Below are positions 1-64,000 of a stretch of DNA of 64,000 nt, piece after piece. Position numbers and translations under genes: made by a program. The stretch comes from Chloroflexia bacterium SDU3-3 (GTDB lineage Bacteria > Chloroflexota > Chloroflexia > Chloroflexales > Roseiflexaceae): assembly GCA_009268125.1 (NCBI GenBank), contig WBOU01000006.1, forward strand, positions 124,001 through 188,000, given 5' to 3'. The stretch's first letter is position 1; each line of letters starts with the position of its first letter. Below the pieces are notes generated by a model, which saw nothing but the letters and a program-made list of their open reading frames with translations, made no database searches and was not told the DNA's origin.

Positions 1-1
1 T

Positions 2-499
2 GCAGCAACATACCTCATCGCACAGCTCGGCACCACCGATGAACTACCGAATATCCTCAACAGGATCCCTGAGGCAAAGCAGTTCATTGCTAGGCTCCAG
101 GAGCAGTATCAGTCACGTAAACTCACGAGTCACCGCTACGCCCCCAACCGCCAGATGACCATCCAGCAACTGGAGGATGAGCTGCGCGCCACGCTGATCG
201 AGACCTGCTTCCCAGACCATCGGATCGAGCCGGTAATCGCAAGCCTACGAGCAGAAGGGTTCGCGCTCCCTGGCTATGACACACCTGCGGCGGGCTGGCT
301 GCTCCCCGTCGAGGTAGAGCACGCTGTGACCATCCGCGATGGCGTCGAATTCGACCAAAGATTTTATACGAGTACTGCTATTGCGATTGAACCAGGTATA
401 GATACGCATATTCGATGCTTGCCTTTACGAATTAAATATAGAGAAGGGATATTTATCGAATATATGACGGGCGTGCTTTATCTTACTATGTCTAGATAA
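2..499 (+). CDS. unrecognised protein, 3' part only (possible Mu-transposase-like C-terminal barrel)
   Basis: The reading frame is open from the window edge, so the N-terminus is missing; a Met at 155 is internal to this frame and need not be the start. About 165 residues are visible. I do not recognise the protein with confidence. Residues encoded at about 310-470 (…RDGVEFDQR.Y.S…PG…IR.LP…IFIEYMTG) resemble the C-terminal beta-barrel of Mu/TnsB/TniA transposases in spacing and hydrophobic pattern; this is an inference from pattern only. Base composition changes inside the gene: GC-rich before about 345 and clearly AT-rich after, like the downstream transposase genes. It stops 38 bp before the DDE transposase on the same strand, so it probably belongs to the same element. 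It could instead be a TnsA-like or unrelated accessory protein. Confidence 0.5.
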   Translation, partial: AATYLIAQLGTTDELPNILNRIPEAKQFIARLQEQYQSRKLTSHRYAPNRQMTIQQLEDELRATLIETCFPDHRIEPVIASLRAEGFALPGYDTPAAGWLLPVEVEHAVTIRDGVEFDQRFYTSTAIAIEPGIDTHIRCLPLRIKYREGIFIEYMTGVLYLTMSR

Positions 500-537
500 T
501 GCGAGTATATAACGCGAATTAAGAAAAGGAGAATCCC

Positions 538-2478
538 ATGAAGGCAGATCAAGAAAACATTTCAACCAATGAATGCAAATCTATTCTCTCAACGTATACT
601 ACTTCTCGCACCACTAAGAGTATTCACACATTGACAGAAGATGAGATGAAAAAGCTAGAAGAGAGGAATAAGGGATTACCTAGACTAATGCTTATAATGA
701 AAACTATTGAGGAGCTAATCGTTTTAGAAAAACAGAATGGTGGCAATCTTCGAGGTACAGGAGCAAGAAAAGCTGCGGCGGAAAAACTGAATGTATCAGT
801 ATGGACAATTGATAATTATATAAAAAGGTATAAGGAGAATCCAAGCATTGATGCATTTATCGATAAGAAGCGAGGTAGGAATATTGGAGACACGTTCACA
901 TTAGAACAACAGCAGGTAATATCTTGGTTCTATCTCAATCGTCAAAAGTATATTATTACATCTGATAATGAAAAGATTATTCTTGAAGGGCTTGAAGATA
1001 CGATATATATAAAGAGTGTATTGGATATCTTATTACCCCTACCATATCATAGCTATGCTTCAATAAGACGATTCATAAGAATATTAGACAAAGATAAGGC
1101 TTTGATGAGTGAGTTCGCTCGTCATGGTGAGAGGCATGTTGCTTCTAAGATTCTTCCAGCACGTCGTAATGATGCTGCCTATGTTAATGAGCGTTGGCAG
1201 ATTGATGCTCGACCACTACCAATTTATATTATACATGATGGTATTAAATGCACTGTTACGCTATTACTTATTATTGATGATCTTTCTCAATATCCTATTC
1301 GTGCAAGGCTTATTCCTCGCAAAATACGTGACGAGGAAGGAATTCCAAGAAAATCTGATTTCACCGCAGCAGATGTTGGCATCTTGCTTGCGAGTGCGAT
1401 TTATTACAGTGGTATATGCCCCTCTGTTCTCTATAATGATCATGGAAGTCAACTTATTGCTATGGAAGATTTTCTTGGCGACATGTCGGAACAAAATCTT
1501 GCGGTTATACGAATGGCAAAGAGCATCCCTCGTCGTCCTCGAGGTCGAGGTAAAATCGAGAACATGCTGAAGCGATTTGACGAGCTTATATGTAACATTT
1601 ACGGTAACACTCTAAAGGTAACTGGGAAAGAGAGCCTATTTGATCTAGTAGAACGCGGTCATGATGCACTGGTTCATATTTCGCTTGAAGACTTTCAGAT
1701 ACGATGTGATGAGTTTATCAAGTTTCTCCGTGAAGAGCCACGTCGTCGTGGAGAAAAACAAACACGAGCCGAACTATGGTCAGCTTCAGAAAACATCCAA
1801 AAAGCACCGCCTATACGCGACCTTATGCGGCTTGTTCCGAACCGTATTACACGTGATACAGCTATCGATTATTGGAAGTTTCAGCTTGCGAATGAAGAAT
1901 ATGAGCCACGTCTTAAATCGGAGGAAGATCTCTATCAATGGGCCGTAGCAAGTGCTCGCAAAGAAAAAGTCCCTCTCCGCGCCGCAGAGCTGGACCAGGG
2001 ATGGGAATGCGATATATGCCTTGATCGAGAAGCGAATTATTGGGCTGAAGGCATCTTAAAAACAACACGATATCTTTCGCAACAAGATTTCCCGCCTATG
2101 CTCAGTCGGGTCCTCAAACGCATGAATGACGAACATTCAGATTTCGTTGAAGGGGCAAAGATAGCAGTCCAGAAGATCAGTAATGGACAAGTATTCAAAC
2201 ACCAGATCACAAGACAACCTATTATCGTGAATACATTGTCTTCAAATATGGAGATGCTTCCAGCCACGGACGACAAACCAGAGTCTGCGGTGGAGCATAC
2301 TTCTAACACATCGGTAATACCTCAACCAAAAGTAGCTCCTTCAAATGTGTCGATTCGGAAAGCACCTGAGAGGAAGGGACCAGAACCCGCTAAACGAAAG
2401 TTTGATTGGAGCCGCGCACCTAAGGCGCAGGAGACGCTCAAACGTATTGAAGGTGAACTCCATCAGGAGCAGGAATAA
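538..2478 (+). CDS. Tn7/Mu-like DDE transposase (TnsB/TniA type)
   Basis: A 646-residue protein with an N-terminal helix-turn-helix region (about residues 60-110, ARKAAAEKLNVSVWTIDNYIKR) and an rve/integrase-type catalytic core. Three acidic residues sit in the correct contexts: D223 (WQIDARP), D301 (YNDHGSQ) and E341 (GRGKIEN), a DD39E arrangement. The tail of about 150 residues is long, basic and proline-rich, as expected for a part that contacts the partner ATPase. Family knowledge: TnsB/TniA cuts and joins the transposon ends after binding repeated terminal sites. The start is supported by AAAAGGAGAATCCC upstream of the ATG. The gene is AT-rich against the GC-rich chromosome, a sign of transfer. 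The ATPase gene begins 2 nt after its stop. IS21 IstA is a less likely alternative because of the length and terminal-repeat layout. Confidence 0.85.
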   Translation: MKADQENISTNECKSILSTYTTSRTTKSIHTLTEDEMKKLEERNKGLPRLMLIMKTIEELIVLEKQNGGNLRGTGARKAAAEKLNVSVWTIDNYIKRYKENPSIDAFIDKKRGRNIGDTFTLEQQQVISWFYLNRQKYIITSDNEKIILEGLEDTIYIKSVLDILLPLPYHSYASIRRFIRILDKDKALMSEFARHGERHVASKILPARRNDAAYVNERWQIDARPLPIYIIHDGIKCTVTLLLIIDDLSQYPIRARLIPRKIRDEEGIPRKSDFTAADVGILLASAIYYSGICPSVLYNDHGSQLIAMEDFLGDMSEQNLAVIRMAKSIPRRPRGRGKIENMLKRFDELICNIYGNTLKVTGKESLFDLVERGHDALVHISLEDFQIRCDEFIKFLREEPRRRGEKQTRAELWSASENIQKAPPIRDLMRLVPNRITRDTAIDYWKFQLANEEYEPRLKSEEDLYQWAVASARKEKVPLRAAELDQGWECDICLDREANYWAEGILKTTRYLSQQDFPPMLSRVLKRMNDEHSDFVEGAKIAVQKISNGQVFKHQITRQPIIVNTLSSNMEMLPATDDKPESAVEHTSNTSVIPQPKVAPSNVSIRKAPERKGPEPAKRKFDWSRAPKAQETLKRIEGELHQEQE

Positions 2479-2480
2479 AA

Positions 2481-3383
2481 ATGCAACGGGATGCATTTGT
2501 TGTTAGTGCTGCTATGATTTCACGTATCCGTAAAATCAATCAGGCAATCCACGAGCAGGGAATACTATTTATCCTTGCGCCTAGCGGGTCAGGAAAAGAT
2601 CGTTTCTTGGACTGGTGGTGGCAAGAAGGATGTGCTCATGTATCTCTTGATGCCACGCAGCGCATTTCCCCCGAAGATATCATCTTCGGAAGCCTTGTTC
2701 CACCGCCGAGTAGATCCGTTCCACCAACGTGCGTTGCCTTCAGCAAAATATGGCATGGGCTTCGCGAACGAGAACGAGAGAGACGAAATAACTATCACCA
2801 ACCCGCTACGAAGATTCGCTCTTGGTACACAGAACAACAGGCATTATCTCTGGTGTATGACCATGTTCACCCACTAGCGAATCAAATAGATCCAAAAGCT
2901 ATTGTCCTGCTCAATGGGGAATATCTTGATAAACGTGCCCTCCTGTATCTCCTTGAGTTGCGAAACCCATTTCAACGGGGGCGTCCCCACCTGCCTCGTA
3001 GAGCACTTGTCATTTCAGTAACTGCTAATCCTGAATCGCTGGAAGAGAATAAGTTTGGGAAAATGGTTAATGAGATCAAGGAGCTACGCCGCTTTTGGAG
3101 CGACCACATGGTAATTGATTTCATGGATGCGCCCGAATTTCAAGAGGTTCTCCTCATCTTCATTCGGAGAAACCTCCAGGCCGTCTTTGCAAATGATATT
3201 GATCATGATATGGTCATCCAAGAAGCAGCAGAATGGACACAAGGAGATTGGCGTTTATTAGCAAAACAGCTCATCCCTCTTATCGATCAAGAACTCGGCC
3301 CACAAATCGGTACCACTCCACGTCAATTCACTCATAGTACTTGGCAACGAGTGCGGAATCGCTGGCAGAAGCGTCTCTGGTAG
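2481..3383 (+). CDS. transposition AAA ATPase (TnsC/TniB type)
   Basis: A 300-residue P-loop ATPase with Walker A at residues 33-40 (APSGSGKD) and a Walker B-like strand near 140-147 (AIVLLNGE). A sensor-like strand follows at about 176-184 (ALVISVTAN). The Walker B carries Asn where Asp is usual, while the following Glu is kept. Its immediate coupling to the DDE transposase (2 nt gap, shared RBS region GGAGCAGGAATAAAA) is the standard layout of TnsB-TnsC and TniA-TniB. In those systems the ATPase selects the target and activates the transposase. No TniQ/TnsD target-selector gene is visible on this side; it would have to lie left of the window. The palindromic terminator and element end follow directly. 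Confidence 0.8.
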   Translation: MQRDAFVVSAAMISRIRKINQAIHEQGILFILAPSGSGKDRFLDWWWQEGCAHVSLDATQRISPEDIIFGSLVPPPSRSVPPTCVAFSKIWHGLRERERERRNNYHQPATKIRSWYTEQQALSLVYDHVHPLANQIDPKAIVLLNGEYLDKRALLYLLELRNPFQRGRPHLPRRALVISVTANPESLEENKFGKMVNEIKELRRFWSDHMVIDFMDAPEFQEVLLIFIRRNLQAVFANDIDHDMVIQEAAEWTQGDWRLLAKQLIPLIDQELGPQIGTTPRQFTHSTWQRVRNRWQKRLW

Positions 3384-3402
3384 ATCCGTGCCTACAAAAA
3401 AT

Positions 3403-3430
3403 GCCCATCCCACAAGCTTGTGGGATGGGC
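3403..3430. terminator. perfect 28-bp palindromic terminator after the ATPase gene
   Basis: The sequence is a perfect dyad (GCCCATCCCACAAGCTTGTG and its completion), 20 bp after the ATPase stop and followed by a short T-rich stretch. It probably ends the transposition operon inside the element. Confidence 0.75.
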
Positions 3431-3438
3431 GTTTCTCG

Positions 3439-3504
3439 ATGTAGAAGAATTAATTTCTTCCATGTAGAAGAATTAATGCATCCATGTAGAAGAATAAACG
3501 AACA
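3439..3504. repeat. transposon end with three direct repeats (putative transposase-binding sites)
   Basis: The motif ATGTAGAAGAATTAAT occurs at 3439 and 3462, and as ATGTAGAAGAATAAAC at 3484, giving a 22-23 bp period. Tn7-like ends carry 22-bp TnsB sites in such arrays. The sequence after the third copy ends in AACA at 3504, so read from outside the element the terminus would be 5'-TGTTCG…, a typical TGT start. The exact boundary is inferred. The other end is not in the window. Confidence 0.7.
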
Positions 3505-3507
3505 GCA

Positions 3508-3529
3508 GCACCGAATGGGTGTTTTTTTC
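3508..3529 (+). terminator. weak hairpin plus T-run between element end and tRNA
   Basis: A 4-bp stem (CACC/GGTG) is followed by seven T residues reading rightward. It could stop read-through from the element into the tRNA antisense strand. The stem is short, so the call is tentative. Confidence 0.35.
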
Positions 3530-3606
3530 TGGTGACCCGGGAGGGATTCGAACCCCCGACACTTGGTTCCGAAGACCAATGCTCTAATCCACTGAGCTAC
3601 CGGGCC
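3530..3606 (-). tRNA. tRNA-Arg (anticodon TCG)
   Basis: On the minus strand the sequence folds as a 77-nt tRNA. The acceptor is GGCCCGG/CCGGGTC with A73 and an encoded CCA. The anticodon stem is TTGGT/ACCAA with loop CTTCGGA, giving TCG; the T-loop is TTCGAAT. The tRNA is intact. The transposon terminus lies only 25 bp beyond its 3' end, so this tRNA is probably the reference point for insertion. Confidence 0.93.
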
Positions 3607-3616
3607 AGCGGGGCAC

Positions 3617-3645
3617 AGTCTACCACAGCTTGGCGATCTTGGCAA
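3617..3645 (-). promoter_or_regulatory. sigma70-type promoter of tRNA-Arg
   Basis: On the minus strand TTGCCA (3645-3640), a 17-bp spacer and TAGACT (3622-3617) precede the tRNA 5' end by about 10 bp. Confidence 0.7.
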
Positions 3646-3669
3646 TCTGGCGCGGCGCGGGGGCCATTT

Positions 3670-3805
3670 TCACCACGAAGGCGCGAAGGCACCAAGGCAA
3701 CAAAAGAACCGTTTCACCACGAAGACGCGAAGACGCGAAGGGAACACGGGAACGAACACCACGAAGGCACGAAGGCGCGAAGGGAAGGAAAGGCCATGAA
3801 AGAGG
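3670..3805. repeat. dispersed 'caccacgaaggcgcgaag' repeats
   Basis: At least three tandem-like variants of CACCACGAAG(A/G)CGCGAAG occur at about 3671, 3716 and 3759. The same motif is found, in either orientation, near 7348-7362 and 31662-31765. It is noncoding; reading frames through it are low-complexity. Such modules are widespread intergenic repeats in some Chloroflexi and Planctomycetes; their function is unknown. Confidence 0.7.
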
Positions 3806-4001
3806 ATGGTGAGCCAGCCCTACCCACCCGGCCCATACGGCGAAGGTGCCGCTCGGGTTTTGATGGCCATATGCACGAAGGCCAGCCACCAAGAAACAGC
3901 ATAGGAACGCCGAATATTGGGGGTTTCGAAGGGGGTGACACCCCCTCGCGGGGTTCCTAGGGGCTGGCCCCTAGGCGCTGCCCGCGCAGGGCATCCACCC
4001 A
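3806..4001 (+). repeat. composite intergenic repeat, copy A
   Basis: This copy runs from ggtgagccagccctaccc to gggcatccaccca and contains two strong dyads, GGGGGTGACACCCCC and CTAGGGGCTGGCCCCTAG. A near-identical copy (about 80-90 percent by eye) lies in inverted orientation at 7140-7336. In both copies the outer side abuts the 'cacgaaggcgcgaag' module, so the unit is composite. It could be a MITE- or REPIN-like sequence. Confidence 0.8.
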
Positions 4002-4400
4002 ACAAACATCTACCACCGCCATCGCTCATGGAAAAAAGCCCAGCGCCGACGGGAAAAGCGACACCATGTGAGGGGCGCGGCCCCCTTGCGGAGGTTCCGC
4101 CGCCCACGCAGGGCATCCACTCATAGCACAAGCACCACCGCCAGCAATGAAAGAGAAGCACGCAGGAAGCAGCGGCTTCGTGGCACATGGGGTCGTTTTG
4201 CCCCTTGGTGTCTTGATGCCCTGGCGGTAGAACCATACTACCGAACCAGAGCACAGCGGCCCTGGGCGAGGGTCAGCGCGCCATCAGCAGAATCTCATAC
4301 CCAGGCCGCTTGCAAATGTGGCCGCTACGGGTAAGATGGTGCCACATTTGTCGGCTGCCAACGCCGTTTCTTCTGCCATGAAGCAGCACAACGAGGTCAT
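4002..4400. other. noncoding stretch with a partial third copy of the composite repeat
   Basis: Around 4068-4112 the order (G-rich dyad, gttcc, gcgcagggcatccac) repeats the inner part of copy A in shortened form. Otherwise I see no gene. Possible frames here are GC-rich shadows without ribosome binding sites. The MFS promoter must lie near the right end but no clear -35/-10 pair is visible. Confidence 0.5.
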
Positions 4401-5723
4401 ATGCGGTTTCCTGCACGCCCCCGCCCCGCCCGCCCCCGCCCGCCCGCCCCACCATCCCCCGCCGAACGGCCCCCGCTCAGCCCCGCCGAGGTGCGGCGCG
4501 GCCTGCGCTGCTCCACCATCGAGGGCGCGCTGGCCAACGTGCACATCAGCATCACCACCGGCGCGTTCGTCACCGGCTTCGCCCTGCTGCTGGGCGCGCG
4601 CGACTTCGAGCTGGGCGTGATGGGCGCGCTGCCCTTCCTGGGCCAGCTGTTCCAGTTCATCGGCGCGTACCTGGAGGAGCGCTGGGGCACCCGCAAGCAG
4701 ATGGTGCTCTACAGCGCGCTGGTGAGCCGCTGCCTGTGGGCGATCATCGCCGCGCTGCCGTTCATGCGCTGGCTGGGCGCGGGGCAGCTGCTGGCCTTCC
4801 TGGTGGTGCTGGGGGCCTCGCAGGCCGTGATGGGCATCAGCTCGAACGCCTGGACCAGCTGGATGAGCGACCTAGTGCCGCCGCGCGAGCGCGGGCGCTA
4901 CTTCGGCGTGCGCAACACCGTGGCGGCGGTGAGCGTGATGCTGAGCACATGGCTGGCGGGCATGGCGCTCGACCACTTCCGGGGCGCGGGCAGCGAGCCG
5001 CTGGGCTACACCGTGATCTTCAGCGTGGCGGTGGTCTTCGCGATCATCGCGGGCTGCGTGCTGACGCTGCAGCCCGAGCCGCCCATGCAGCGGCGCGCCG
5101 AGCAGCTGCGCGTGGGCAACCTGTTCAGCGCGCCGCTGCGCCACGCGCGCTTCCGCTCGTTCACGCTGGCCGCCACCGGCTGGGCGGTGGCCACCGGCGT
5201 GGCCTCGTCGTTCTTCAACGCCTACGGCCTGCAGAACCTGCATGTGTCATACCAGACCCTGGCGCTGTTCGGCATCGCCACCAGCGCGGTCAACCTGTTC
5301 ACCCAGCCCTACATCGGCCAGCTGCAGGACAAGTTTGGCGACAAGACGGTGCTGATCATCTCGGTGCTGGGCACGGTGGCGCTGCCGTGGGGCTGGGTCT
5401 TCTCCACCCCCGACTTCCTGCTGCCGGTCTGGCTCACCTCGATCTTCTCGGGGGTGTTCTGGCCGGGCATCAACCAGGGGCTGATGAACCTGCTGATGGA
5501 CCGCGCGCCCGCCGAGGGGCGGGGGGCCTACGTGGCGGCCTTCGGCGCGGTGAACGGCGCGGGCACCTTCGCGGCCTCGCTGCTGGGCGGCGTGCTGGCC
5601 ACCGCGCTCAGCGGCACCGTGCTGCACCTGGGCGGGCTGGAGATCGGGCACTACGCGGTGCTGTTCGTGATCTCCAGCGTGGGGCGGCTGGCCATGGCCT
5701 GGGTGTTCAGCCGGGCGCTCTAG
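4401..5723 (+). CDS. MFS transporter
   Basis: A 440-residue integral membrane protein with about 12 hydrophobic segments in two halves. A proline-rich N-terminal tail of about 30 residues precedes the first segment. The loop EERWGTRKQ after segment 2 and RERGRYFGVRN in the first half match the usual MFS cytoplasmic loop signatures. The substrate cannot be read from the sequence. The start follows AACGAGGTCAT. A Crp/Fnr regulator gene follows 135 bp downstream on the same strand, with a possible separate promoter. The DNA is GC-rich like the chromosome. Confidence 0.85.
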   Translation: MRFPARPRPARPRPPAPPSPAERPPLSPAEVRRGLRCSTIEGALANVHISITTGAFVTGFALLLGARDFELGVMGALPFLGQLFQFIGAYLEERWGTRKQMVLYSALVSRCLWAIIAALPFMRWLGAGQLLAFLVVLGASQAVMGISSNAWTSWMSDLVPPRERGRYFGVRNTVAAVSVMLSTWLAGMALDHFRGAGSEPLGYTVIFSVAVVFAIIAGCVLTLQPEPPMQRRAEQLRVGNLFSAPLRHARFRSFTLAATGWAVATGVASSFFNAYGLQNLHVSYQTLALFGIATSAVNLFTQPYIGQLQDKFGDKTVLIISVLGTVALPWGWVFSTPDFLLPVWLTSIFSGVFWPGINQGLMNLLMDRAPAEGRGAYVAAFGAVNGAGTFAASLLGGVLATALSGTVLHLGGLEIGHYAVLFVISSVGRLAMAWVFSRAL

Positions 5724-5858
5724 CCTGGCACAAGGGCGCTGCAAGGCGGCGCGCGGCCCTAGCGCGGAAGGGGACTGGCTTCCTATTGCCTAGCGGCGGT
5801 TTTCACGTACCCTATGGTACAATGATTGCACACAGCGAGCTAGATGGGGGAGAAGGCT

Positions 5859-6515
5859 ATGGGAAGGCGACCGCAACCGGTGAACGAAATTTTTGGCGCG
5901 TGGCGCAGGCTGTTCCAGGGCCGCGCCCCCGAGCGGCTGCCCAAGGGCGCGCTGATCTACTCCCCAGATCAGCGGGCCGAGGATCTGCTGCTGCTGACCG
6001 ACGGCGAGGTAGGGCTGTACCTGCAGGCCCCCGAGGGCCGGACGCTGATGGTGCGGGTGGTGCAGCCGGGCCAGATCTTCGGGCATATGGCCGTGGGCGA
6101 GCCGGGCAGCTACGACACCTTCGCCGAGGCCCAGTCGCCCGCCCGCGTGTACCGCGTGGGCCGCGAGCAGCTGGCCCAGCTGGTGCAGCAGGAGCCAGAG
6201 CTGGGGCTGGAGCTGCTGGATGACCTGGGCGAGCACCGCCTGGGCGTGAGCCGCATGCTCGACGAGGTGGCGTTCAAGTCGGTGCCGGCGCGGCTGGCCA
6301 CGCTGCTGCTCGACCTGGCCAACCGCCACGGGGCGCACTCGCTGCAGTTCCCGCGCCAGTCGCACCGCCAGCTGGCCGAGATGGTGAACGCCTACCGCGA
6401 GACGGTGACGAAGGTGATCAACCAGTTCCGCGCCGACCACCTGCTGGAGATCGACCGCTCGACCATCCGCCTGCTGAACCTGCGGGTGCTGGAGGAGCTG
6501 GCCCACGGGGTGTAG
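5859..6515 (+). CDS. Crp/Fnr-family transcriptional regulator
   Basis: A 218-residue protein with an N-terminal cyclic-nucleotide-binding-type beta-roll (about residues 15-120) and a C-terminal winged helix. The recognition region (about 165-195) reads HRQLAEMVNAYRETVTKVINQF, as in Crp/Fnr proteins. No Fnr-type cysteine cluster is present, so it is probably not an Fe-S oxygen sensor. The start at 5859 is chosen over an ATG at 5844 because GGGGGAG lies 7 bp upstream. A TACAAT hexamer at 5817 may be its -10. Confidence 0.85.
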   Translation: MGRRPQPVNEIFGAWRRLFQGRAPERLPKGALIYSPDQRAEDLLLLTDGEVGLYLQAPEGRTLMVRVVQPGQIFGHMAVGEPGSYDTFAEAQSPARVYRVGREQLAQLVQQEPELGLELLDDLGEHRLGVSRMLDEVAFKSVPARLATLLLDLANRHGAHSLQFPRQSHRQLAEMVNAYRETVTKVINQFRADHLLEIDRSTIRLLNLRVLEELAHGV

Positions 6516-41902: not shown

Positions 41903-41976
41903 TGGCTGGGGAACAGGGACTCGAACCCCAACTACTGGAGCCAGAATCCAGCGTTCTACCGTTAAACTATTCCCCA
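41903..41976 (-). tRNA. tRNA-Gln (CTG), copy 1
   Basis: 74 nt on the minus strand: acceptor TGGGGAA/TTCCCCA (U1-A72, typical of tRNA-Gln), G73, encoded CCA. The anticodon stem CTGGA/TCCAG with loop TTCTGGC gives CTG. Identical to copy 2 by eye. Confidence 0.93.
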
Positions 41977-41999
41977 ATACACCACAAGCCAAAGCTTGT

Positions 42000-42086
<87 letters not shown>

Positions 42087-42159
42087 AAATTGTCAATGTG
42101 CCCGCGCCCCGCGCGGTGGGTATTTCGCGTAGCGGTAACAAGCGTTGCCGCTACGCAGT

Positions 42160-42233
42160 TGGCTGGGGAACAGGGACTCGAACCCCAACTACTGGAGCCA
42201 GAATCCAGCGTTCTACCGTTAAACTATTCCCCA
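42160..42233 (-). tRNA. tRNA-Gln (CTG), copy 2
   Basis: Same 74-nt sequence as the copy at 41903-41976, including the encoded CCA. Confidence 0.93.
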
Positions 42234-42263
42234 ATACCTACAAGCCATAGCCAAAGGACTTGT

Positions 42264-42350
<87 letters not shown>

Positions 42351-55639: not shown

Positions 55640-58600
55640 CTAGTCGGCAGAGCCGCGCACCTCGGGCGACGCGCCCACGGCGGCGGTTGCGCGCTCGCGC
55701 CGAAACATGCGCGTGAATCGCGTGGTGATCGAGTCGAGCAGCGAGTAAGCCACCGGCACCACCAGCAGCGTCAGGAACATCGATGTGATCAGGCCACCGA
55801 TCAGCACCACCGCCAGGCCACGCCGGAACTCGGTGCCCTGGCCGCTGGAGAACAGGTGGATGCTGAGCGCGGTGGGCAGCGAGCCGGCCACGATCGCCAG
55901 CGTGGTCATCAGAATGGGGCGCAGGCGCACCGAGCCAGAGCGCTCGATCGCCATGTGCTTGGGCATCCCGGCCTTACGCAGGCGGTTGGTGAAATCGACC
56001 AGCAGAATCGAGTTTTTCGTCACCAGACCCAGCAGCATGATCAGGCCGATCATGCCGGTGATGTCCATCTCGATGCCGGTGAGGATCAGCGAGATAAACG
56101 CGCCGATGAAGCTGAACGGCATGGCCAGCATGATCACCAGCGGCTGCGTGAACGAGCCGAACTGCGAGGCAAGCACCATATACACAAACAGCACCGAGAG
56201 GCCCATGGCGATAAATAGCGTCGAGAAGCCCTCGGACTGCATCTGCGCGGTGCCTACAAAGCTGAAGATCAGGTCGCCCGAGATATCCGGCGGCAGCGAA
56301 CTCTTGACCGCATCAACACGCGCCTGGATGTCCTTCTGCACCTCGGCGGATGTGCGCCCGACCACGTTTGCGCCGATCAGCACCTGGTTCATGCGGTCGT
56401 AGCGGCGGATGCTGGTGGGGCTGGCCCCGCCCTCGGCGGTGACAAGCGCGCTCAGCGGCACGCTGCCCGCCGCCGTCGGCACAGCGATGCCGCGCAGGTC
56501 GTCGGTCGAGGCGCGGTCGCCGGGCTGCAGCTGCACAAACACATCCACATCATCGCCGTTCTGGCGGAAGACGGTGGCGGTGTCGCCGTTGATCAGCGCC
56601 CGCACCGAGATAGCGATGCTCTGGTTAGTGATGCCCAGATTGCCGGTCTTGGCCGGGTCGGCGTGGAACTGTAGCTCGGGCTTGCCCGGCTTGTACGAGG
56701 TATCGACATCCACCAGGCCCGGGATGCTGTTGGCCTCGCCCTGCAGCTTCAGCAGCACCGGCGCGATCTCCTCGACCTGCTTGGTGGTCTGCACGCTCAT
56801 CTGGATGGTGCGGCTGGTCACATCGGCGCTGCTGCCGCCCTGGTAGGAGGGCTGCGCGAAGGCCAGCTTGCGCAGGAAGCCCAGCTGGGGGCGCAGCTCA
56901 TCCTGGGTCTCGACCGTGGGCGTGCCCGGCTTCAGCTTCACAAAGAAGCTGGCGCGCTCGGCGTTGCCGGTGAAGCCCACCGTCGAGATCACCGCATCCA
57001 CACGCGGATCGTTCAGCAGCACCTGCTCGGCCTGGCGGGCCAGCTTATCGGTCTGGGCCAGCGCGGTGCCTGGCTCCAGCTCGAACTGCATGGTGAACGA
57101 GCTGCTCTCCTGGCCGGGGAAGAACGAGAACTTGAGGTGGGTGGCGACCCAGCCGCTCAGCAGCAGCACCACCACGGCGATCACCACCACCAGCCCACGG
57201 TGCAAGAGCGCCCAGCCCAGCACCCGCCCGTAGAAGCGGCCCAGCGCGCCGGGGTCGTCCTCGGCCTCCAGCATGGCGTGGTCGGCCTCGGCATCCGCCG
57301 TGGGCGGCACCGTCTCGGCGCGGGTCGACTCGGCCTGCGGCTGGCCCTTCAGCTTGCGGGCCGCGATCTCGGCCAGCGAGCCGTGGGGCAGGCGCTGCTT
57401 GAACAGATAGGCCGAGAGCATGGGGGCCAGCGTGAACGCCTCGATCAGCGAGAGCGCCATGGCCGAGGCCACCGTAAGGCCAAACGACTTGAAGATGATG
57501 CCGGTGATGCCCGATGTGAACGTGACCGGCAGGAACACCGAGATGATCGTGAGCGTCATGGCCAGCACCGACAGCGCCACCTCGGCGGTGCCGCGGCTGG
57601 AGGCCACACGCGGGGTCTCGCCGCGCTCCATGTGGCGGAAGATGTTCTCGCGCACCACGATCGCGTCGTCGATCACCAGGCCCACCGAGAGCGAGAGCGC
57701 CAGCAGCGTGATCAGGTTGATCGACAGCCCAAAGGCCTGCAGCGCCACAAACGTGCCGATCATGATCACCGGCAGGCCGGAGATAGTGACCAGGGTGTTG
57801 CGGATGTCGCGGAAGAAGATCAGCACGATCAGCATGGCCGACACCGCCGCGATCAGCAGCTCCTCGATCGCGCTCTCGACCGAGCTGCGCACGGCATCCG
57901 ACTGGTCGTTGGGGATGTAGTACTTCAGGTCGGTGCGATTGGCGAAGATCGCGGTCAGCTCGGCCTTCACCGCCTCGGCCACCGACACCGTGTTGGTGCC
58001 CGACTGCTTGCGCACCGCTAGGCTGATCGCATCCTGGCCATTCAGGCGCGCGTAGCTCTTCTGCTCGGCGATGCCATCCACCACCCGCGCCACATCGCCC
58101 ACCCGAAACGCTGTGCCGGTGATCTGGATGCGCTCGATGTCCTTCGGCTCCTGGATCATGCTGGGCGCGCGCAGGCTGATGTCGCGCTCGCCATCGCCGA
58201 TCGAGCCAAGGCCATAGTTGGTGTTGGCCGCCTGGAGCGAGCTGATGATCTGCGACGGCAGGATCTGCCGCGTCTTCAGCTGATCCAGGTTCATCTGCAC
58301 GTTCAGCTGGCGCTTCTGGCCGCCGTTCACATCCACCGCGCCCACGCCGGGGATGCGCTGCAGGCGCGGCACGATGTCGTCATCCACCAGCTTGCGCAGC
58401 TCCAGCGGCGAGCGGCTGCCGTCGGAGGCGACCGCCACCGTGAGGATGGCCTGATCGTTCGGGTCGAACTTCAGGTAGGTCGGGTCGCCCACATCGCTGG
58501 GCAGGCGCGGCAGCAGCGCGTTAACCTTCTCGCGCACATCCTGCTCGGCCCGGTCGACATCCACACCGGCCTGGAACTCGACCACAATTGTGGCGGTGCC

Positions 58601-58897
58601 CTCGCTGGAGGTTGAGGTGATGTGCTTGACGCCGTTGATCGTGTTGATGCGATCCTCGATCGGCTCGGCAACCTGATCGGCCACGCTCTGCGGGCCAGCG
58701 CCGGTGTAGGGCACGGTCACCGCAACAATGGGGATGTTGAAATCGGGCAGCAGGTTCACTGGCAGCGCGCTGTACGCTATCAGGCCCGTCACCACCGCCA
58801 GCAGCATCAGCATGGTGATGAATACTGGCTGGCGGATTGAGGTATCGGCAATGATATTGCCATCCAGCCCGTCGTTCCGTGCGGGTTTCGCCATCAT
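55640..58897 (-). CDS. RND efflux permease (AcrB/HAE1-like)
   Basis: A 1085-residue proton-driven exporter with the standard two-fold layout: TM1 near residue 25, a large loop, TM2-6, TM7 after an inserted acidic linker (about 530-560), a second loop, and TM8-12. FSINLITLLALSLSVGLVIDDAIVV carries the paired Asp residues of the proton relay in TM4. The C-terminal half ends with MLLGLVTKNSILLVDFTN and LRPILMTTLAIVAGSLPTAL. The substrate is unknown. The start codon is ATG 58897 or 58894, with GAGG upstream. Divergent TetR control is likely. Confidence 0.93.
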   Translation of the reverse strand: MMAKPARNDGLDGNIIADTSIRQPVFITMLMLLAVVTGLIAYSALPVNLLPDFNIPIVAVTVPYTGAGPQSVADQVAEPIEDRINTINGVKHITSTSSEGTATIVVEFQAGVDVDRAEQDVREKVNALLPRLPSDVGDPTYLKFDPNDQAILTVAVASDGSRSPLELRKLVDDDIVPRLQRIPGVGAVDVNGGQKRQLNVQMNLDQLKTRQILPSQIISSLQAANTNYGLGSIGDGERDISLRAPSMIQEPKDIERIQITGTAFRVGDVARVVDGIAEQKSYARLNGQDAISLAVRKQSGTNTVSVAEAVKAELTAIFANRTDLKYYIPNDQSDAVRSSVESAIEELLIAAVSAMLIVLIFFRDIRNTLVTISGLPVIMIGTFVALQAFGLSINLITLLALSLSVGLVIDDAIVVRENIFRHMERGETPRVASSRGTAEVALSVLAMTLTIISVFLPVTFTSGITGIIFKSFGLTVASAMALSLIEAFTLAPMLSAYLFKQRLPHGSLAEIAARKLKGQPQAESTRAETVPPTADAEADHAMLEAEDDPGALGRFYGRVLGWALLHRGLVVVIAVVVLLLSGWVATHLKFSFFPGQESSSFTMQFELEPGTALAQTDKLARQAEQVLLNDPRVDAVISTVGFTGNAERASFFVKLKPGTPTVETQDELRPQLGFLRKLAFAQPSYQGGSSADVTSRTIQMSVQTTKQVEEIAPVLLKLQGEANSIPGLVDVDTSYKPGKPELQFHADPAKTGNLGITNQSIAISVRALINGDTATVFRQNGDDVDVFVQLQPGDRASTDDLRGIAVPTAAGSVPLSALVTAEGGASPTSIRRYDRMNQVLIGANVVGRTSAEVQKDIQARVDAVKSSLPPDISGDLIFSFVGTAQMQSEGFSTLFIAMGLSVLFVYMVLASQFGSFTQPLVIMLAMPFSFIGAFISLILTGIEMDITGMIGLIMLLGLVTKNSILLVDFTNRLRKAGMPKHMAIERSGSVRLRPILMTTLAIVAGSLPTALSIHLFSSGQGTEFRRGLAVVLIGGLITSMFLTLLVVPVAYSLLDSITTRFTRMFRRERATAAVGASPEVRGSAD

Positions 58898-58939
58898 CTA
58901 CCTCAGAAAATCATCCTTCAAGATCTTGTAACAAGCTTA

Positions 58940-58968
58940 ACTATAGAGTAAACTATTCTAACACGCAA
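58940..58968 (-). promoter_or_regulatory. RND pump promoter with embedded TetR operator candidate
   Basis: On the minus strand TTGCGT (58968-58963), a 17-bp spacer and TATAGT (58945-58940). The inverted repeat TAGAGTA-AAC-TATTCTA (58944-58960, one mismatch) fills the spacer and touches the -10, the usual place for a repressor. Confidence 0.7.
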
Positions 58969-59097
58969 GTAGCTATTTGGTCGTATTCGTTTACTTTTCA
59001 GCAAGAGATCCTACTACCCCGGCTACACCCGATCAAGCGACCAAGCGCACCCTTCAGCATGCAACCAATAGCGGGGGCTCAGCATAAGGCAAAACAC

Positions 59098-59718
59098 ATG
59101 AGACACTCACTCCGCGAGCGACGAAAGCAGCAGCTACGCGACGAGATCCTCGATGCGGCCCGTACCCTGCTCGATCAGAACGGCATGGCCGCCGTGGTGA
59201 TGGACGAGCTGGCCACGCTGGCGGGCATCTCCAAGCCCACGCTCTACAACCACTTCCCCAGCGGCAAAGATGAGGTGATCGCCGCCCTGATCGCGCGCGA
59301 GATCCACCGCATCCTCGCCATCACCGACCCGAAAGACTGTGTCGGCACCCCGCTGCAAGAGCTGGGGCGCATCCTTGAGATGATTGTGCAGAAGCAGATC
59401 AACGACCAGCGGCAGCCCACGCGCATCTGGTTCCCCGAGATGAATCGACTGATCTACGATCACCCCGAGATGATGGATGCCTTCAGCAAGCTGGAAGAGC
59501 GTATGAGCACGCTCATCCAGGCCGCGCTCGACATGGGCGAGATCGACCCGCGCTTCGACACGCCCACGATCATGCGCGCCTTCTACGCCCTGGTCACCTG
59601 CCTGCACTTCCAGCCCAGCAGCATGATCGGCATCCCCAACCCGCAGAGCACGCCGCAAAACCTGGCGCGGCTGTTCTGCCGTGGCGTGCAATCTGCAGTG
59701 GGCACAGCCAAAGGCTAG
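59098..59718 (+). CDS. TetR-family transcriptional regulator
   Basis: A 206-residue regulator. The N-terminal HTH (about 8-55) reads RDEILDAARTLLDQNGMAAVVMDELATLAGISKPTLYNHFPSGKDE, the TetR pattern. The C-terminal ligand domain is helical and not assignable to a drug class. The start at 59098 is preferred (ATAAGG upstream); an ATG at 59059 is an alternative. It diverges from the RND pump and probably represses it and itself. The endonuclease V gene follows by 14 bp. Confidence 0.9.
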   Translation: MRHSLRERRKQQLRDEILDAARTLLDQNGMAAVVMDELATLAGISKPTLYNHFPSGKDEVIAALIAREIHRILAITDPKDCVGTPLQELGRILEMIVQKQINDQRQPTRIWFPEMNRLIYDHPEMMDAFSKLEERMSTLIQAALDMGEIDPRFDTPTIMRAFYALVTCLHFQPSSMIGIPNPQSTPQNLARLFCRGVQSAVGTAKG

Positions 59719-59732
59719 AAGAGGGACTATCT

Positions 59733-60440
59733 ATGAATACCGATGAGATTCTGGAAGCCTGGCCCGCCACGCTAGAAGAGGCTGAGCAGATCCAGCAGAT
59801 GCTGCGTCACCAGGTGATCGCCAGCGACGACTTTGGCCAGATCCGCACGATCGCGGGGGTGGATGCGGGCTACCAGGGCGATCAGGCCAAGGCCGCGATC
59901 GTGGTGCTGTCGTACCCCGACCTGCGCCCGCTGGCCTACACGCTGGCCTACGCGCCAGCGCCCTTCCCCTACATCCCGGGCTTTCTCTCGTTCCGCGAGG
60001 CCCCGGCGGTGCTGCGCGCCCTGGACGAGATCGCGATCAAGCCCGACATGCTGGTGGTGGATGGCCAGGGCATCGCCCACCCGCGCCGCCTGGGCATCGG
60101 CGCGCACCTGGGCGTGCTCACGGGCATCCCCACGATTGGCTGCGCCAAATCGCTGCTGTGTGGCCGCCACGACCCGCTGCCCGACGAACGCGGCGCGTCG
60201 GTGCCGCTCACCCACCGCGGCGAGCAGATCGGCGCGGTGCTGCGCAGCAAGGTGGGCGTGAAGCCGCTGTACATCTCGGTGGGCCACCGCATCAGCCTAC
60301 CCACCGCGCTAGATGTGGTGATGAGCTGCGTGACCAAGTACCGCCTGCCCGAGACCACCCGCGCCGCCGACGGGCTGGCATCCCACGGGCGCATCCCCCA
60401 GATCGACCTGCAGGCCCCCCAGCAGCAGCTGCTGCTCTAG
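59733..60440 (+). CDS. nfi: endonuclease V
   Basis: A 235-residue deoxyinosine-specific nuclease that nicks DNA one base 3' to deaminated adenine. Family motifs: IAGVDAGY (first metal Asp), PYIPGFLSFREAP, DMLVVDGQGIAHPRRLGIGAHLGV and PTIGCAKS. The length is usual. AGAGGGACTATCT precedes the ATG. It probably shares the TetR transcript and ends with a clear hairpin. Confidence 0.95.
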   Translation: MNTDEILEAWPATLEEAEQIQQMLRHQVIASDDFGQIRTIAGVDAGYQGDQAKAAIVVLSYPDLRPLAYTLAYAPAPFPYIPGFLSFREAPAVLRALDEIAIKPDMLVVDGQGIAHPRRLGIGAHLGVLTGIPTIGCAKSLLCGRHDPLPDERGASVPLTHRGEQIGAVLRSKVGVKPLYISVGHRISLPTALDVVMSCVTKYRLPETTRAADGLASHGRIPQIDLQAPQQQLLL

Positions 60441-60465
60441 CCCGCGCGGGCGCGCAAAACGACCA

Positions 60466-60492
60466 CAGGCGTGGCACATGCTGCCACGCCTG
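60466..60492 (+). terminator. terminator after nfi
   Basis: A perfect 11-bp stem (CAGGCGTGGCA/TGCCACGCCTG) with a CATGC loop. Confidence 0.8.
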
Positions 60493-60530
60493 CGAGATAG
60501 ACTGTTTGCATAAAGATGTGGGGCTAGTGA

Positions 60531-60806
60531 CTAGCGGTCGTGTCGATCGAGGAAGCCCTCGGGGTTGACGCGCATCTCGACCACCGTCAGGATGATCAGG
60601 CCGACCAGGCCGGCGAGGATAGTGTGGATGATCAGGCCGATGATCGGGTCGGGGCGGCCCGCCGTCAGATCCATCTGCCAGTGGAAGAAGGCAAAACCGA
60701 TCACAAACAGCGTCCAGCCCATCCACAGGGCCACCTGCTTACCTTTGCCGCCGTTGTCGTTCGTGGCTGCCTCCTTCGCGCTCACGTCGTTCGCTTTGAT
60801 CAGCAT
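60531..60806 (-). CDS. small two-helix membrane protein, MerR-linked
   Basis: A 91-residue protein with two transmembrane helices (about 27-44 and 55-77) joined by a loop DLTAGRPDP. No family is recognised. The start is well supported by AGGAGTGAGAG. A dyad nearly identical to the one before merR lies 65 bp upstream, so it is a likely MerR target. The role may be a small stress-membrane protein. Confidence 0.65.
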   Translation of the reverse strand: MLIKANDVSAKEAATNDNGGKGKQVALWMGWTLFVIGFAFFHWQMDLTAGRPDPIIGLIIHTILAGLVGLIILTVVEMRVNPEGFLDRHDR

Positions 60807-60870
60807 CTCTCACTCCTGACTCCTGCCAGTGCTGGGCGGTTGTCGGCCCGCCCGACTGACAGATGTAACT

Positions 60871-60886
60871 TTAACGTTAACGTCAA
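60871..60886 (-). promoter_or_regulatory. MerR operator candidate before the two-helix membrane protein
   Basis: TTAACGT-TA-ACGTCAA, an inverted repeat with one mismatch, nearly identical to the site at 61306-61321. Confidence 0.65.
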
Positions 60887-60903
60887 GTTTGCGGTAAAAA
60901 AAA

Positions 60904-61296
60904 CTAGTCGCTTACCGGAATAGCAGCGATCGACTCCTCGATGCGAGTGATGCTCGCCTGCAGGTCGTCGCGGAACTGCTGGAGGGTGTAGAGCTTCTCG
61001 TCGGTCTCGGCCAGGTGCTCGTGTAGGATCTCGAGCACACGCCGCTTGCCGCGGATGCCGGTCGAATCTTCGCAGTAGAGCGGGATGACTTCGACGATAT
61101 CCTCAAGCCGCAGCCCGAGCTGCTTGAGCATGTCGATTTTATGAAGCCGCGCTACCTCTGCGTCGGAGTAGTAGCGGAAGCCCTGGCCCTCGCGCTCGCA
61201 GGGGCCGAGCAGGCCAAGGGATTCGTAGTAGCGGATCGTCCGAGGCGTGACGCCGGCCACTTCAGCCAGCTCGCCTATACGCATCTTGTCTTTCAT
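60904..61296 (-). CDS. MerR-family transcriptional regulator
   Basis: A 130-residue regulator. The N-terminal winged helix is MRIGELAEVAGVTPRTIRYYESLGLL…FRYYSDAEVARL (about 5-50), followed by a long dimerisation coiled coil. The effector-binding end is short and has a single Cys (YCED, near residue 74), so it does not show the metal-binding cysteine pair of MerR/CueR. CAAGGTACAATC precedes the ATG. A perfect dyad lies directly upstream, implying autoregulation. Confidence 0.9.
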   Translation of the reverse strand: MKDKMRIGELAEVAGVTPRTIRYYESLGLLGPCEREGQGFRYYSDAEVARLHKIDMLKQLGLRLEDIVEVIPLYCEDSTGIRGKRRVLEILHEHLAETDEKLYTLQQFRDDLQASITRIEESIAAIPVSD

Positions 61297-61425: not shown

Positions 61426-61455
61426 AAGACCCAGCACCTTATGGTACTGGGTCTT
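61426..61455 (-). terminator. old terminator of the disrupted tRNA-Pro
   Basis: A 13-bp stem with one mismatch (AAGACCCAG.ACC) follows the tRNA-Pro fragment on the minus strand, with TTTGT after it. Confidence 0.7.
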
Positions 61456-61464
61456 CTCGGGTGA

Positions 61465-61487
61465 TGGTCGGGGCGAGAGGATTCGAA
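61465..61487 (-). other. attachment-site remnant: 3' end of a tRNA-Pro gene
   Basis: The minus strand reads TTCGAATCCTCTCGCCCCGA then CCA, exactly a T-loop, 3' T-stem, acceptor strand and CCA with the C1-G72/A73 type of tRNA-Pro. The expected 5' T-stem is missing (TTGGC in place of AGAGG), so homology stops at the T-loop. This is the usual scar of site-specific integration into a tRNA 3' end. The intact tRNA-Pro should lie at the other end, right of the window. Confidence 0.75.
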
Positions 61488-61767
61488 GCCAAACCCTAAC
61501 GATAAAGCCTGTTGCCTCTTTTCTGAGGCTTCAACAGGACATGTTTATGATCACCCTTTCAGAATACCCGCAAATCTTGCCTATTTCAAGCCTCCATGGG
61601 CCACCCACCACCGGCCCACGCACAGGGGCCGCAGCGCCCCCGCTCACTAGGCGCATGCCCATAGTGTAGCAGCCCACCACCCATCCAACCAACGGCCTTT
61701 TGCAGCACAGCACCCACTACCGTGGGTAGCCTTGCTGTGCTGCACTCTGAAACCATATGAGGCATGT
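61488..61767. other. element-end intergenic region with two long hairpins
   Basis: Hairpins lie at 61508-61538 (CCTGTTG…CAACAGG with an inner CCTC/GAGG) and 61702-61743 (GCAGCACAGCA…TGCTGTGCTGC with an inner CCCAC/GTGGG). They may be recombinase-accessory or regulatory structures of the integrated element. No gene is seen here. Confidence 0.5.
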
Positions 61768-62064
61768 ATGAGCATCACTACCCCCAAGACGATCACGATC
61801 ACCCTTGACGCATACACCCTGGAGCTGCTGAACGAATATAAGCGCCGCATGCTCAAGAGCTACAACGAAACCCCATGTGAGAGCGATTATGAATATGGGT
61901 ACTACCTGCAACAGGCCGCCCGCAGGCATATGAGCGAGGAAAACGAGCGCCCCGAACCGGAGGCCGGTGAGGGCCTGCGAGCTACAGAGGCCATGTGGCG
62001 CTTGGTTTCCGCTGCCGACGCCCAGCCCACGCCCGCCGCGCCGGAGGACGACCATGCAGCCTAG
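61768..62064 (+). CDS. small unknown protein of the integrated element
   Basis: A 98-residue protein. The N-terminal half (PKTITITLDAYTLELLNEYKRRML) resembles ribbon-helix-helix proteins (beta strand, then LDAYTLELLNEY helix), so a DNA-binding role is possible. The rest is acidic and Pro-rich. GAGGCATGT precedes the ATG. The stop overlaps the next gene by 11 nt. It is the first gene inside the element. Confidence 0.6.
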   Translation: MSITTPKTITITLDAYTLELLNEYKRRMLKSYNETPCESDYEYGYYLQQAARRHMSEENERPEPEAGEGLRATEAMWRLVSAADAQPTPAAPEDDHAA

Positions 62065-62389
62065 GCAGCATGAGCTACGCGAGCTGCTGCCGGGCACGCT
62101 GGGCGGGCTGGCGCTGGCCACGCGGCGCGGCGCGGCCCACCTGGCGGGCATCGGCCACGTGGGCGGGCTGCACACCGCCCAGCGCTACGGCGCGGCGTAC
62201 ATGCGCGAGCTAGGCCGCAAGGGCGCGCATGAGCGCTGGCGGCGCGCCCGCCAGCCGCGCACGGTCGAGGAGCACGCCACCGGCCAGCTCATCGCCGTCT
62301 ACCGCCGCGTGTGCTACCGCCGCCCGCGCAGCCGCGCCCGCCGCCCGCAGCCGGTCTTCATCCTCCTCTGGGAACCCGAACAGGATTAG
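62054..62389 (+). CDS. small basic unknown protein of the integrated element
   Basis: A 111-residue, very Arg-rich protein (RKGAHERWRRARQPR…YRRPRSRARRPQP), consistent with nucleic-acid binding; no family recognised. CGGAGGACGACC gives a strong ribosome site. It overlaps the previous gene and is followed 3 bp later by the primase gene, so the three are one operon. Confidence 0.6.
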   Translation: MQPRQHELRELLPGTLGGLALATRRGAAHLAGIGHVGGLHTAQRYGAAYMRELGRKGAHERWRRARQPRTVEEHATGQLIAVYRRVCYRRPRSRARRPQPVFILLWEPEQD

Positions 62390-62392
62390 CGC

Positions 62393-64000
62393 ATGCGACA
62401 GAACAGCTTCGATACCTATGAGATCGCCCAAGGCTATACCGCTGCGGGGTTAAGTGTCATCCCGATCCTGCGCGGCACCAAGGCCCCACATCCTGAGCTG
62501 CTGCCCAAAGAATGGGATGACGAGAAGCAGCAGCCCAGGGCCACATGGAAACCCTTCCAAGAGCGCCGCGCCTACCCCCAAGAGCTGAAGCGCTGGTTTA
62601 GCGGCACGGATGCGGGCATCGGCATCGTGGGCGGCGCGGTGAGCGGGGGCCTGGTGGTGATCGACCTGGAAAGCGTGGCCCTGGCCGACCAGTGGCGCGC
62701 GATCGCCGCCGACCTGGTGAGCGCCGATCTGCTCGACCGGCTGCCCGTGGTGGCCACCGGCAAGGGCAAGCATGTGTACTTCCGCATGCCCGACCCCATC
62801 GGCAACCGCAAACTGGCCAAGGTCGGCAAGACCATTTTGGCCGAGACACGCGGCGAGGGCGGCTATGTGCTGGCCCCGCCGTCTGTCCACCCCACCGGCG
62901 CAATTTACGAATGGTGCGCCGGAGACCCCGACGCCATCCCCATGCTCACGCTGGCCGAGGCCACCGCGCTGATCGACGCGGCGCGGGCCTTGGCCCCCAC
63001 CACCGAGCACCCCAACAGTCAGGGCGCGGCCACCGGCGACGGGCGCAGCGTGATCGACACCTTCAACCAGCGCCGCACGATTGCCGAGATCCTGACCGCC
63101 CACGGCTACCAGGCCGAGCGCGGCGGGCGCTTCATCCGCCCTGGCGGCGAGCGTTCGAGCGTGGTCATTCACGAGGGGCGCAGCACGCACTACAACCCCA
63201 CCGACACGCTCTACAGCGAGGCCCCAGGCGGTGGCTTGCATAGCCACTCGCCCTTTAGCGCGTGGTGCCAGCTGGCCCACGGCGGCGATCTCAAAACGGC
63301 CGTGCGGGCCGCTGCGGCGGAGCTGGGCATCAGCCGCCCGCCGCCCAGCCCTGCGGCGCTCTTGGAGCAAGGCAGGCGCTGGGGCGGGATGGAGCAGGAG
63401 AACACCAGTTGGCCCTACTTCCTGCACGAGGGCGGCATGTGGATGGAGCGCACCGACCGTGACGGCGGGCCAAAAGCGCCGCTGATGATGACCAACTGGA
63501 CGGCGCAGATCGTGGCCGAGGTCGCCCAGCACGATGGGGAAAACTGTACCGAGTTCTACCGCATCACGGCGCGCTGTGGGGCCAAGGCCCGCACGCTTGA
63601 GATGGAGTGCAGCGAGTACGAGGGCGAGGCCGCGCTGGGGCGGATCGTCGCTTCCCTGGGGGCAAAGGCGCGGGTCAACCCCGCCGCGCAGTCGCGCTAC
63701 ATCCTCGACGCGATCAAGAGCCTTTCCACCGACCTGACCGAACAGGTGATCCACAACCACACCGGCTGGGTCGACGGCCAATTTCTGCTGCAAAACGGCG
63801 CGGTGAGCGCGGCGGGCTGGCAGGGCGCGGCGGGCGACAGCCCCAACCGCGCCCACCTGCCGCAGCGGATCGAGCGCTACCGCCTGAACCCGCCCAGCGA
63901 CGCCAGCATGGTGGACGCCATGCGCCTGTTTGATGACCTGCTGCAGCTTGCGCCCAGCGCGGTGATGGTGCCCTTGGTCGGCGCGGTGCTGCTCTCGCCC
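62393..64000 (+). CDS. primase-polymerase (Prim-Pol) replication protein, 3' end beyond window
   Basis: The frame is open from 62393 to the window end (536 residues seen). The N-terminal AEP/Prim-Pol domain has the metal pair in GLVVIDLES (D91, E93), the nucleotide-binding H127 in TGKGKHVYF, and RGEGGYVLAPPSVHPTGAIYEW. A middle region (about 220-310) follows. The visible C-terminal part (SAVMVPLVGAVLLSP) resembles the start of a DUF927/helicase-like ATPase unit. Such proteins replicate plasmids, phages and integrative elements. ATG context is weak, but the preceding stop at 62387-62389 suggests coupling. Confidence 0.85.
   Translation, partial: MRQNSFDTYEIAQGYTAAGLSVIPILRGTKAPHPELLPKEWDDEKQQPRATWKPFQERRAYPQELKRWFSGTDAGIGIVGGAVSGGLVVIDLESVALADQWRAIAADLVSADLLDRLPVVATGKGKHVYFRMPDPIGNRKLAKVGKTILAETRGEGGYVLAPPSVHPTGAIYEWCAGDPDAIPMLTLAEATALIDAARALAPTTEHPNSQGAATGDGRSVIDTFNQRRTIAEILTAHGYQAERGGRFIRPGGERSSVVIHEGRSTHYNPTDTLYSEAPGGGLHSHSPFSAWCQLAHGGDLKTAVRAAAAELGISRPPPSPAALLEQGRRWGGMEQENTSWPYFLHEGGMWMERTDRDGGPKAPLMMTNWTAQIVAEVAQHDGENCTEFYRITARCGAKARTLEMECSEYEGEAALGRIVASLGAKARVNPAAQSRYILDAIKSLSTDLTEQVIHNHTGWVDGQFLLQNGAVSAAGWQGAAGDSPNRAHLPQRIERYRLNPPSDASMVDAMRLFDDLLQLAPSAVMVPLVGAVLLSP

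Follow-up and report, generated by a model that had tools for sequence, protein, structure and literature searches.

We analyzed a window of 64,000 nucleotides, C6:124001-188000 of the 6.76 Mb genome, in which a position on contig C6 equals the window position plus 124000. The right edge of the window holds the left end of a unit of 22.64 kb (about 22.6 kb; C6:185464-208126), which is almost certainly an integrated mobile element. The junctions, the replication operon, the cargo and the right end of the element contain the following features.

61427..61457, minus strand: original rho-independent terminator of tRNA-Pro, stranded outside attL (from its fold)
61464..64000, no strand: part of the element inside the window, its left end; the other 20.1 kb lie beyond
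61464..61487, minus strand: attL core, the final 23 nt of tRNA-Pro plus 1 nt, sequence ATGGTCGGGGCGAGAGGATTCGAA
61768..62064, plus strand: g01, acidic protein of 98 aa with an RHH-like look and no Pfam match
62054..62389, plus strand: g02, Arg-rich basic protein of 111 aa, net charge +12, overlapping g01 by 11 nt
62393..64000 and on to C6:189122 (window 65122), plus strand: g03, Prim-Pol with a DUF927-type helicase, 909 aa
C6:189146-189434: iteron array between the two prim-pol genes
C6:189525-190421, plus strand: g04, second Prim-Pol, 298 aa (PF09250 E=6.1e-22)
Replication operon, plus strand: g05, TM segments and a C-terminal winged-helix-like stretch
C6:191471-195963, outside the window: cargo region of two AT-rich cassettes between convergent operons
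Cargo cassette 1: g06, SLFN_AlbA_2
Cargo cassette 2: g07 (PIN_12) and g08 (PIN_8)
Right end of the element: g23, AT-rich, TM
Right end, less than 2 kb from attR: g24, tyrosine recombinase (Phage_integrase PF00589 E=7.8e-24)
Right end, between g24 and g26: g25
Right end, less than 2 kb from attR: g26, HTH_17 match, Xis-like
C6:208103-208126 (window 84103-84126 if extended): attR core, identical to attL over 24 nt
C6:208104-208180, minus strand: intact tRNA-Pro(cgg), its 3' end formed by the attR core

The target was a tRNA gene: we are nearly certain that the element was inserted in tRNA-Pro between two 24-bp att cores. The sequence-only reading had taken a tRNA-Pro 3' fragment as the left junction, had predicted the intact gene and an integrase further to the right, and had named the lack of a downstream core repeat or recombinase as the result that would speak against it. 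Extension to the right recovered the core 22.6 kb downstream, inside the intact tRNA-Pro(cgg), as well as the recombinase close to attR. A pattern search of the whole genome with 22 nt of the core returned two exact matches, attL and attR, and one further site with 2 mismatches in another tRNA-Pro-like gene. The old terminator noticed at the left junction was also borne out, as the hairpin-bearing stretch of 60 nt on the attL side folds at -25.3 kcal/mol while the attR side has weak structure only (-15.8). Since such a hairpin adjoins tRNA-Pro in all the family loci inspected (18/18), is present at attL and is weak at attR, we consider the hairpin at 61427-61457 to be the displaced terminator of tRNA-Pro itself. 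In the comparison with family relatives, the genes left of tRNA-Pro were not conserved and an exact empty site was not found. Therefore, we relied on the displaced terminator, together with the attP/attR pair of a sister element described below, in place of a same-species empty site.

Left of the element, inspection by eye of window positions 55640-61296 indicated an RND-type efflux gene, a TetR-like regulator, an endonuclease V-like gene and a MerR-family regulator. Further left, at 41903-42350, a tRNA-Gln(ctg)/tRNA-Leu(cag) pair occurs twice in tandem.

The replication operon begins with the two small proteins that had been described as RHH-like and Arg-rich. The second description agrees with the charge of g02, for which the Pfam search gave no match; g01 does have the look of an RHH protein, but this assignment is unproven because a Pfam match is absent. 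The Prim-Pol with a downstream ATPase-like region, also predicted from the sequence, was confirmed in g03 by Pfam matches to PF09250 (E=3.2e-25) and to DUF927 (PF06048, E=8.4e-11), the DUF927 ATPase-like part starting at the window edge. By eye, g03 also shows DhE-like 'VVIDLE' and 'GKGKHVYF' motifs. The iteron array consists of 11 copies of CATGTGACA in both orientations within 290 bp, and this sequence is absent from the rest of the element and from the window left of it. The array is thus a candidate origin. By their families, the Prim-Pol and the iterons strongly suggest plasmid-like replication, which sharpens the earlier view of a plasmid- or phage-derived element.

The cargo genes have a GC content of 0.29-0.33, against about 0.67 for the backbone. 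At its left boundary each cassette carries a copy of the 3' end of g05 (83% identical over approximately 262 bp), which includes a palindromic terminator and a promoter-like TTGCAT...TATACT stretch; the right boundary of each repeats the 3' end of g08b, a small ORF (94% over 79 bp). The two cassettes seem to be two versions of one cargo interval, joined by recombination where the convergent operons meet. Their genes look like defence or toxin genes, and PADLOC gave no hit of weight on them.

The opposite strand carries a membrane/FtsK operon with the following genes in reading order.

C6:205102 down to 196148, minus strand, outside the window: the whole operon
g22, g21, g20, g19, g18 and g17, minus strand: small proteins of 38-70 aa
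g16, minus strand: signal peptide, NlpC/P60 domain (E=1e-13) and about six TM segments
g15, minus strand: 734 aa, signal peptide, Pro/Thr linkers and C-terminal membrane anchor
g14, g13 and g12, minus strand: small proteins
g11, minus strand: winged helix
g10, minus strand: FtsK_SpoIIIE (PF01580 E=1.5e-36)
g09, minus strand, last: two hydrophobic segments at the N-terminus, a long linker rich in Arg, Gln and Ala, and a ParB domain of ddrB-like type (E=1e-31)

In a hydropathy scan, six of the nine tiny proteins (g12, g17, g18, g19, g20 and g22) had a clear hydrophobic segment, and g13, g14 and g21 were below the threshold. The Walker A and B motifs of g10 are intact. This motor matched FtsK (2e-38) better than the conjugative coupling protein TcpA (6o1w, 9e-27), and the TraB model with E=9e-12. 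In the tree, it grouped with the FtsKs of other Chloroflexales elements, apart from chromosomal FtsK (support 98/95); the sole TraB included, from pIJ101, sits elsewhere on a very long branch. Among the main ORFs, Pfam and NCBIfam gave no family match to a relaxase or to VirB4: the VirB4 P-loop was matched below the cutoff by g10 itself (E=0.09) and VirD1 at chance level by the PIN protein g07 (E=0.13). A Spd homologue was not recognised in the element. Tailed-phage terminase, portal, major capsid and tail genes were not detected as such with PHROGs, whose matches were limited to primase, integrase, FtsK and ddrB-type families and to tail proteins sharing the NlpC domain, with one weak terminase match by the FtsK motor (E=8e-4). 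By Pfam, the ATPase matches FtsK_SpoIIIE and not Zot, the Zot/pI-type morphogenesis ATPase being that of Inoviridae. The lack of detectable tailed-phage structural genes, together with a dedicated FtsK/membrane/surface module, narrows the origin of the element further.

When 158 genomes of the class were searched for the FtsK, the operon was recovered from four further genomes of Chloroflexales, giving five elements with that of SDU3-3. The four relatives come from Chloroflexaceae-type phototrophs.

Ca. Chloroploca asiatica B7-9: contig of 17,193 bp with 77-bp terminal direct repeats
Ca. Chloroploca sp. Khr17: contig of 18,363 bp with 77-bp terminal direct repeats
Oscillochloris sp. ZM17-4: contig of 14,949 bp, the operon leaving one end and resuming at the other
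Oscillochloris MAG: contig of 16,640 bp, with other DNA

The terminal repeats indicate that both Chloroploca contigs are circular, and the ZM17-4 contig is probably circular as well, since its operon spans the contig ends. Full-length g16 was found in no other genome among 400 sampled from the phylum. Scans of IMG/VR with g10, g09, g16 and the g10 alignment returned nothing or the FtsK motor alone, the phage and plasmid records held no close relatives but only FtsK motors of less than 45% identity, and the operon was absent from all viral records searched. A literature search for a Chloroflexi ICE with FtsK found no paper.

The sister element of Ca. Chloroploca asiatica was present in two states. 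The ends of its circle (attP) contain the 3' end of tRNA-Lys; in contig C48, the same 77 nt continue into an intact tRNA-Lys, which is the attR of an integrated copy, and contig C18 joins foreign DNA, the core and the first left-end bases of the element, an attL beside another element. The attP and attR junctions thus coexist. The contig header gives a k-mer coverage of 843 for the circle, the published value for the genome being 86.3x (PMC6180586). This roughly tenfold excess of the circle over the chromosome, as judged from a k-mer header value in a metagenomic assembly, points to replication after excision, and the sister element appears to be multi-copy and already excised. The neighbour that abuts the tRNA-Lys attL (C18, L128, positions 1-6400) has an integrase, a rolling-circle Rep (PF23343, 5.8e-25) and a TM HerA/TrwB-like ATPase, and is possibly another small FtsK-HerA-type mobile element.

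The replication gene is exchanged among the elements, being a Prim-Pol in SDU3-3, a DnaB-like helicase in Chloroploca and an HTH Rep in Oscillochloris. In the HTH Rep genes at L046 (12155-13006) and L047 (8771-9778), QIVDD is repeated in tandem, and these repeats are probably iterons inside the coding sequence. The g16, g10 and g09 proteins of the two Chloroploca elements share 90-95% identity; the ends of g15 are 93-100% identical and its central 240 aa or so only 17-38%. One small membrane protein (65 aa) has, in its Khr17 form, a signal peptide together with an ectodomain of BNR-type repeats, about 340 aa long. Judged from the sequences, the variation of the g15 centre and of this ectodomain is the mark of putative exchangeable recognition domains on an exposed surface. 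AlphaFold models of the Chloroploca NlpC/polytopic protein (mean pLDDT 40) and surface protein (mean pLDDT 32), both from shallow alignments, were too poor for a fold.

Overall, we propose, with a probability of about 0.57, that the element works like an AICE: an integrative, autonomously replicating circle for FtsK-type dsDNA conjugation, with its own surface module and outside Actinobacteria. Going by the protein families, the tyrosine recombinase and the Xis-like HTH_17 protein would excise the element, and the Prim-Pol/helicase would replicate the circle from the CATGTGACA array. The conserved opposite-strand operon would then act as a conjugation-like apparatus, by a transfer mechanism that we infer. 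The NlpC/P60 polytopic protein g16 would open the peptidoglycan, the secreted and C-terminally anchored g15 would recognise the partner cell through its swappable central domain, and the small membrane proteins may build a pore or junction. The FtsK translocase g10 would pump dsDNA into the neighbour in the manner of TraB of actinomycete ICEs, with neither relaxase nor T4SS, and the membrane-anchored ddrB/ParB-like g09 may tether or protect the DNA. Against this proposal, the FtsK lies in its own Chloroflexales clade and is nearer to FtsK than to TcpA; a membrane virus would also be consistent with the many tiny membrane proteins, with a spike-like protein and with sizes that, without cargo, fall in the narrow range of 15-18 kb.

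Such a virus, temperate and infecting bacteria, either of membrane-vesicle (pleolipovirus-like) or of filamentous type, is the strongest competitor, unlikely in our estimate but serious. Its small TM and polytopic proteins would be virion membrane or coat and g15 the spike; during entry NlpC/P60 would breach the wall, and circular dsDNA would be loaded by the FtsK ATPase. The gene order (polytopic protein, spike, small ORFs, ATPase) is analogous to that of Pleolipoviridae (VP3-VP4-ORF6-ORF7-ATPase), a family in which some members have prim-pol and integrase and one provirus lies at a tRNA (PMC10599561). The hypervariable centre of the spike, the multi-copy circle of Ca. Chloroploca asiatica and the similar sizes of the elements fit as well. 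However, no viral structural family in PHROGs is matched by sequence, the IMG/VR contigs found share at most the FtsK motor, an FtsK/SpoIIIE translocase is not among the described pleolipovirus core genes, and bacterial pleolipoviruses are unreported. It is rather doubtful, in particular, that filamentous Chloroflexota have an undescribed family of temperate dsDNA viruses enclosed in a membrane, with the operon as their virion module. The plan of these viruses would be pleolipovirus-like, with an NlpC/P60 membrane protein that opens the wall, a spike whose receptor domain can be exchanged and a genome loader of the FtsK type.

We regard as improbable a non-self-transmissible integrative plasmid or satellite, mobilised by other elements or by transformation, whose membrane module serves for example surface exclusion, cell-cell contact or partition. 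The membrane anchor of the ddrB/ParB protein and the mobile element abutting the sister copy would suit it, but the conservation of the operon in five elements despite swapped replication genes (Prim-Pol; DnaB-like; HTH Rep), which would be expected of a transmission module, and the intact Walker motifs of the FtsK argue against it. That the unit is a decayed, immobile remnant is highly improbable: it is single-copy in the SDU3-3 genome, foreign AT-rich genes are inserted and no circular form was seen for this genome, yet every core ORF is open and the att cores, integrase, translocase and Prim-Pol motifs are intact.

The AICE-like reading was compared with known systems. AICEs are defined by Int, Rep (RepSA, RepAM or Prim-Pol) and a Tra of the FtsK type, and they had been reported from Actinomycetales only (PMC3218068); their TraB moves dsDNA without a T4SS, aided by Spd membrane proteins (PMC12857230). 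The element has an integrase with att repeats at a tRNA, a Prim-Pol Rep and an FtsK/SpoIIIE Tra (PF01580). It shares with pSAM2, SLP1 and pMEA300 the tRNA att site, the tyrosine integrase with an Xis-like protein, a similar size, Prim-Pol replication in some, a single FtsK/SpoIIIE translocase and the lack of relaxase and T4SS. By contrast, its host is a member of Chloroflexales within Chloroflexota rather than of Actinomycetales, its FtsK forms a separate clade outside the AICE clades (as compared with one long-branch TraB), and it has no recognised Spd homologues. Where AICEs have Spd membrane proteins and clt repeats bound by the Tra C-terminus, small membrane proteins and an iteron array are present as possible counterparts, with no homology recognised. 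It adds to the AICE plan the NlpC/P60 polytopic protein, the swappable secreted surface protein, many tiny membrane proteins and the TM-ddrB/ParB protein. Because of the host and the FtsK clade the element fails to qualify as an AICE; our preferred reading is that it works like one.

Other systems resemble the element in part. ICETh1 of Thermus thermophilus, which uses another FtsK-HerA ATPase, TdtA, for transjugation, is similar in its tRNA 3' end, recombinase, single FtsK-HerA-type dsDNA translocase, lack of T4SS and size of about 15 kb; in the excerpted account, TdtA is described without a detected DNA-binding domain, ICETh1 seems non-replicating whereas our element has a multi-copy relative, and an NlpC/surface module is not mentioned (PMC5365140). 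The haloarchaeal Pleolipoviridae share the order of polytopic protein, C-terminally anchored spike, small ORFs and ATPase and have modular replication genes; the element differs from them by the lack of detected sequence homology, the FtsK-type motor, the wall hydrolase and the bacterial host. The Gram-positive TcpA/pCW3-type systems have an FtsK-like coupling motor (6o1w, 9e-27), but the element is without VirB4, T4SS channel subunits and relaxase.

Conjugation of double-stranded DNA by FtsK alone has been described in mycelial actinomycetes, and the element would be its analogue in another phylum, in which some multicellular filamentous bacteria have cells joined by septal channels (PMC7332563). 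If DNA is indeed transferred, filamentous bacteria would offer a second example of an FtsK/SpoIIIE-type motor that serves as a cell-to-cell DNA pump. Since the Ca. Chloroploca asiatica sister appears multi-copy and excised, conjugation and virus can be directly told apart in the existing enrichment culture.

Three more distant elements (L053, L054 and L056) have an FtsK of 28-33% identity. L053 and L056 carry a g16-related polytopic protein without NlpC/P60 and large secreted proteins with conserved C-termini, and a direct-repeat search of the ends of L054 gave none convincing. In all three, a tRNA-Thr gene with an encoded CCA lies in or beside the transfer operon (L053 5125-5198, L054 12009-12083 and L056 5398-5470).
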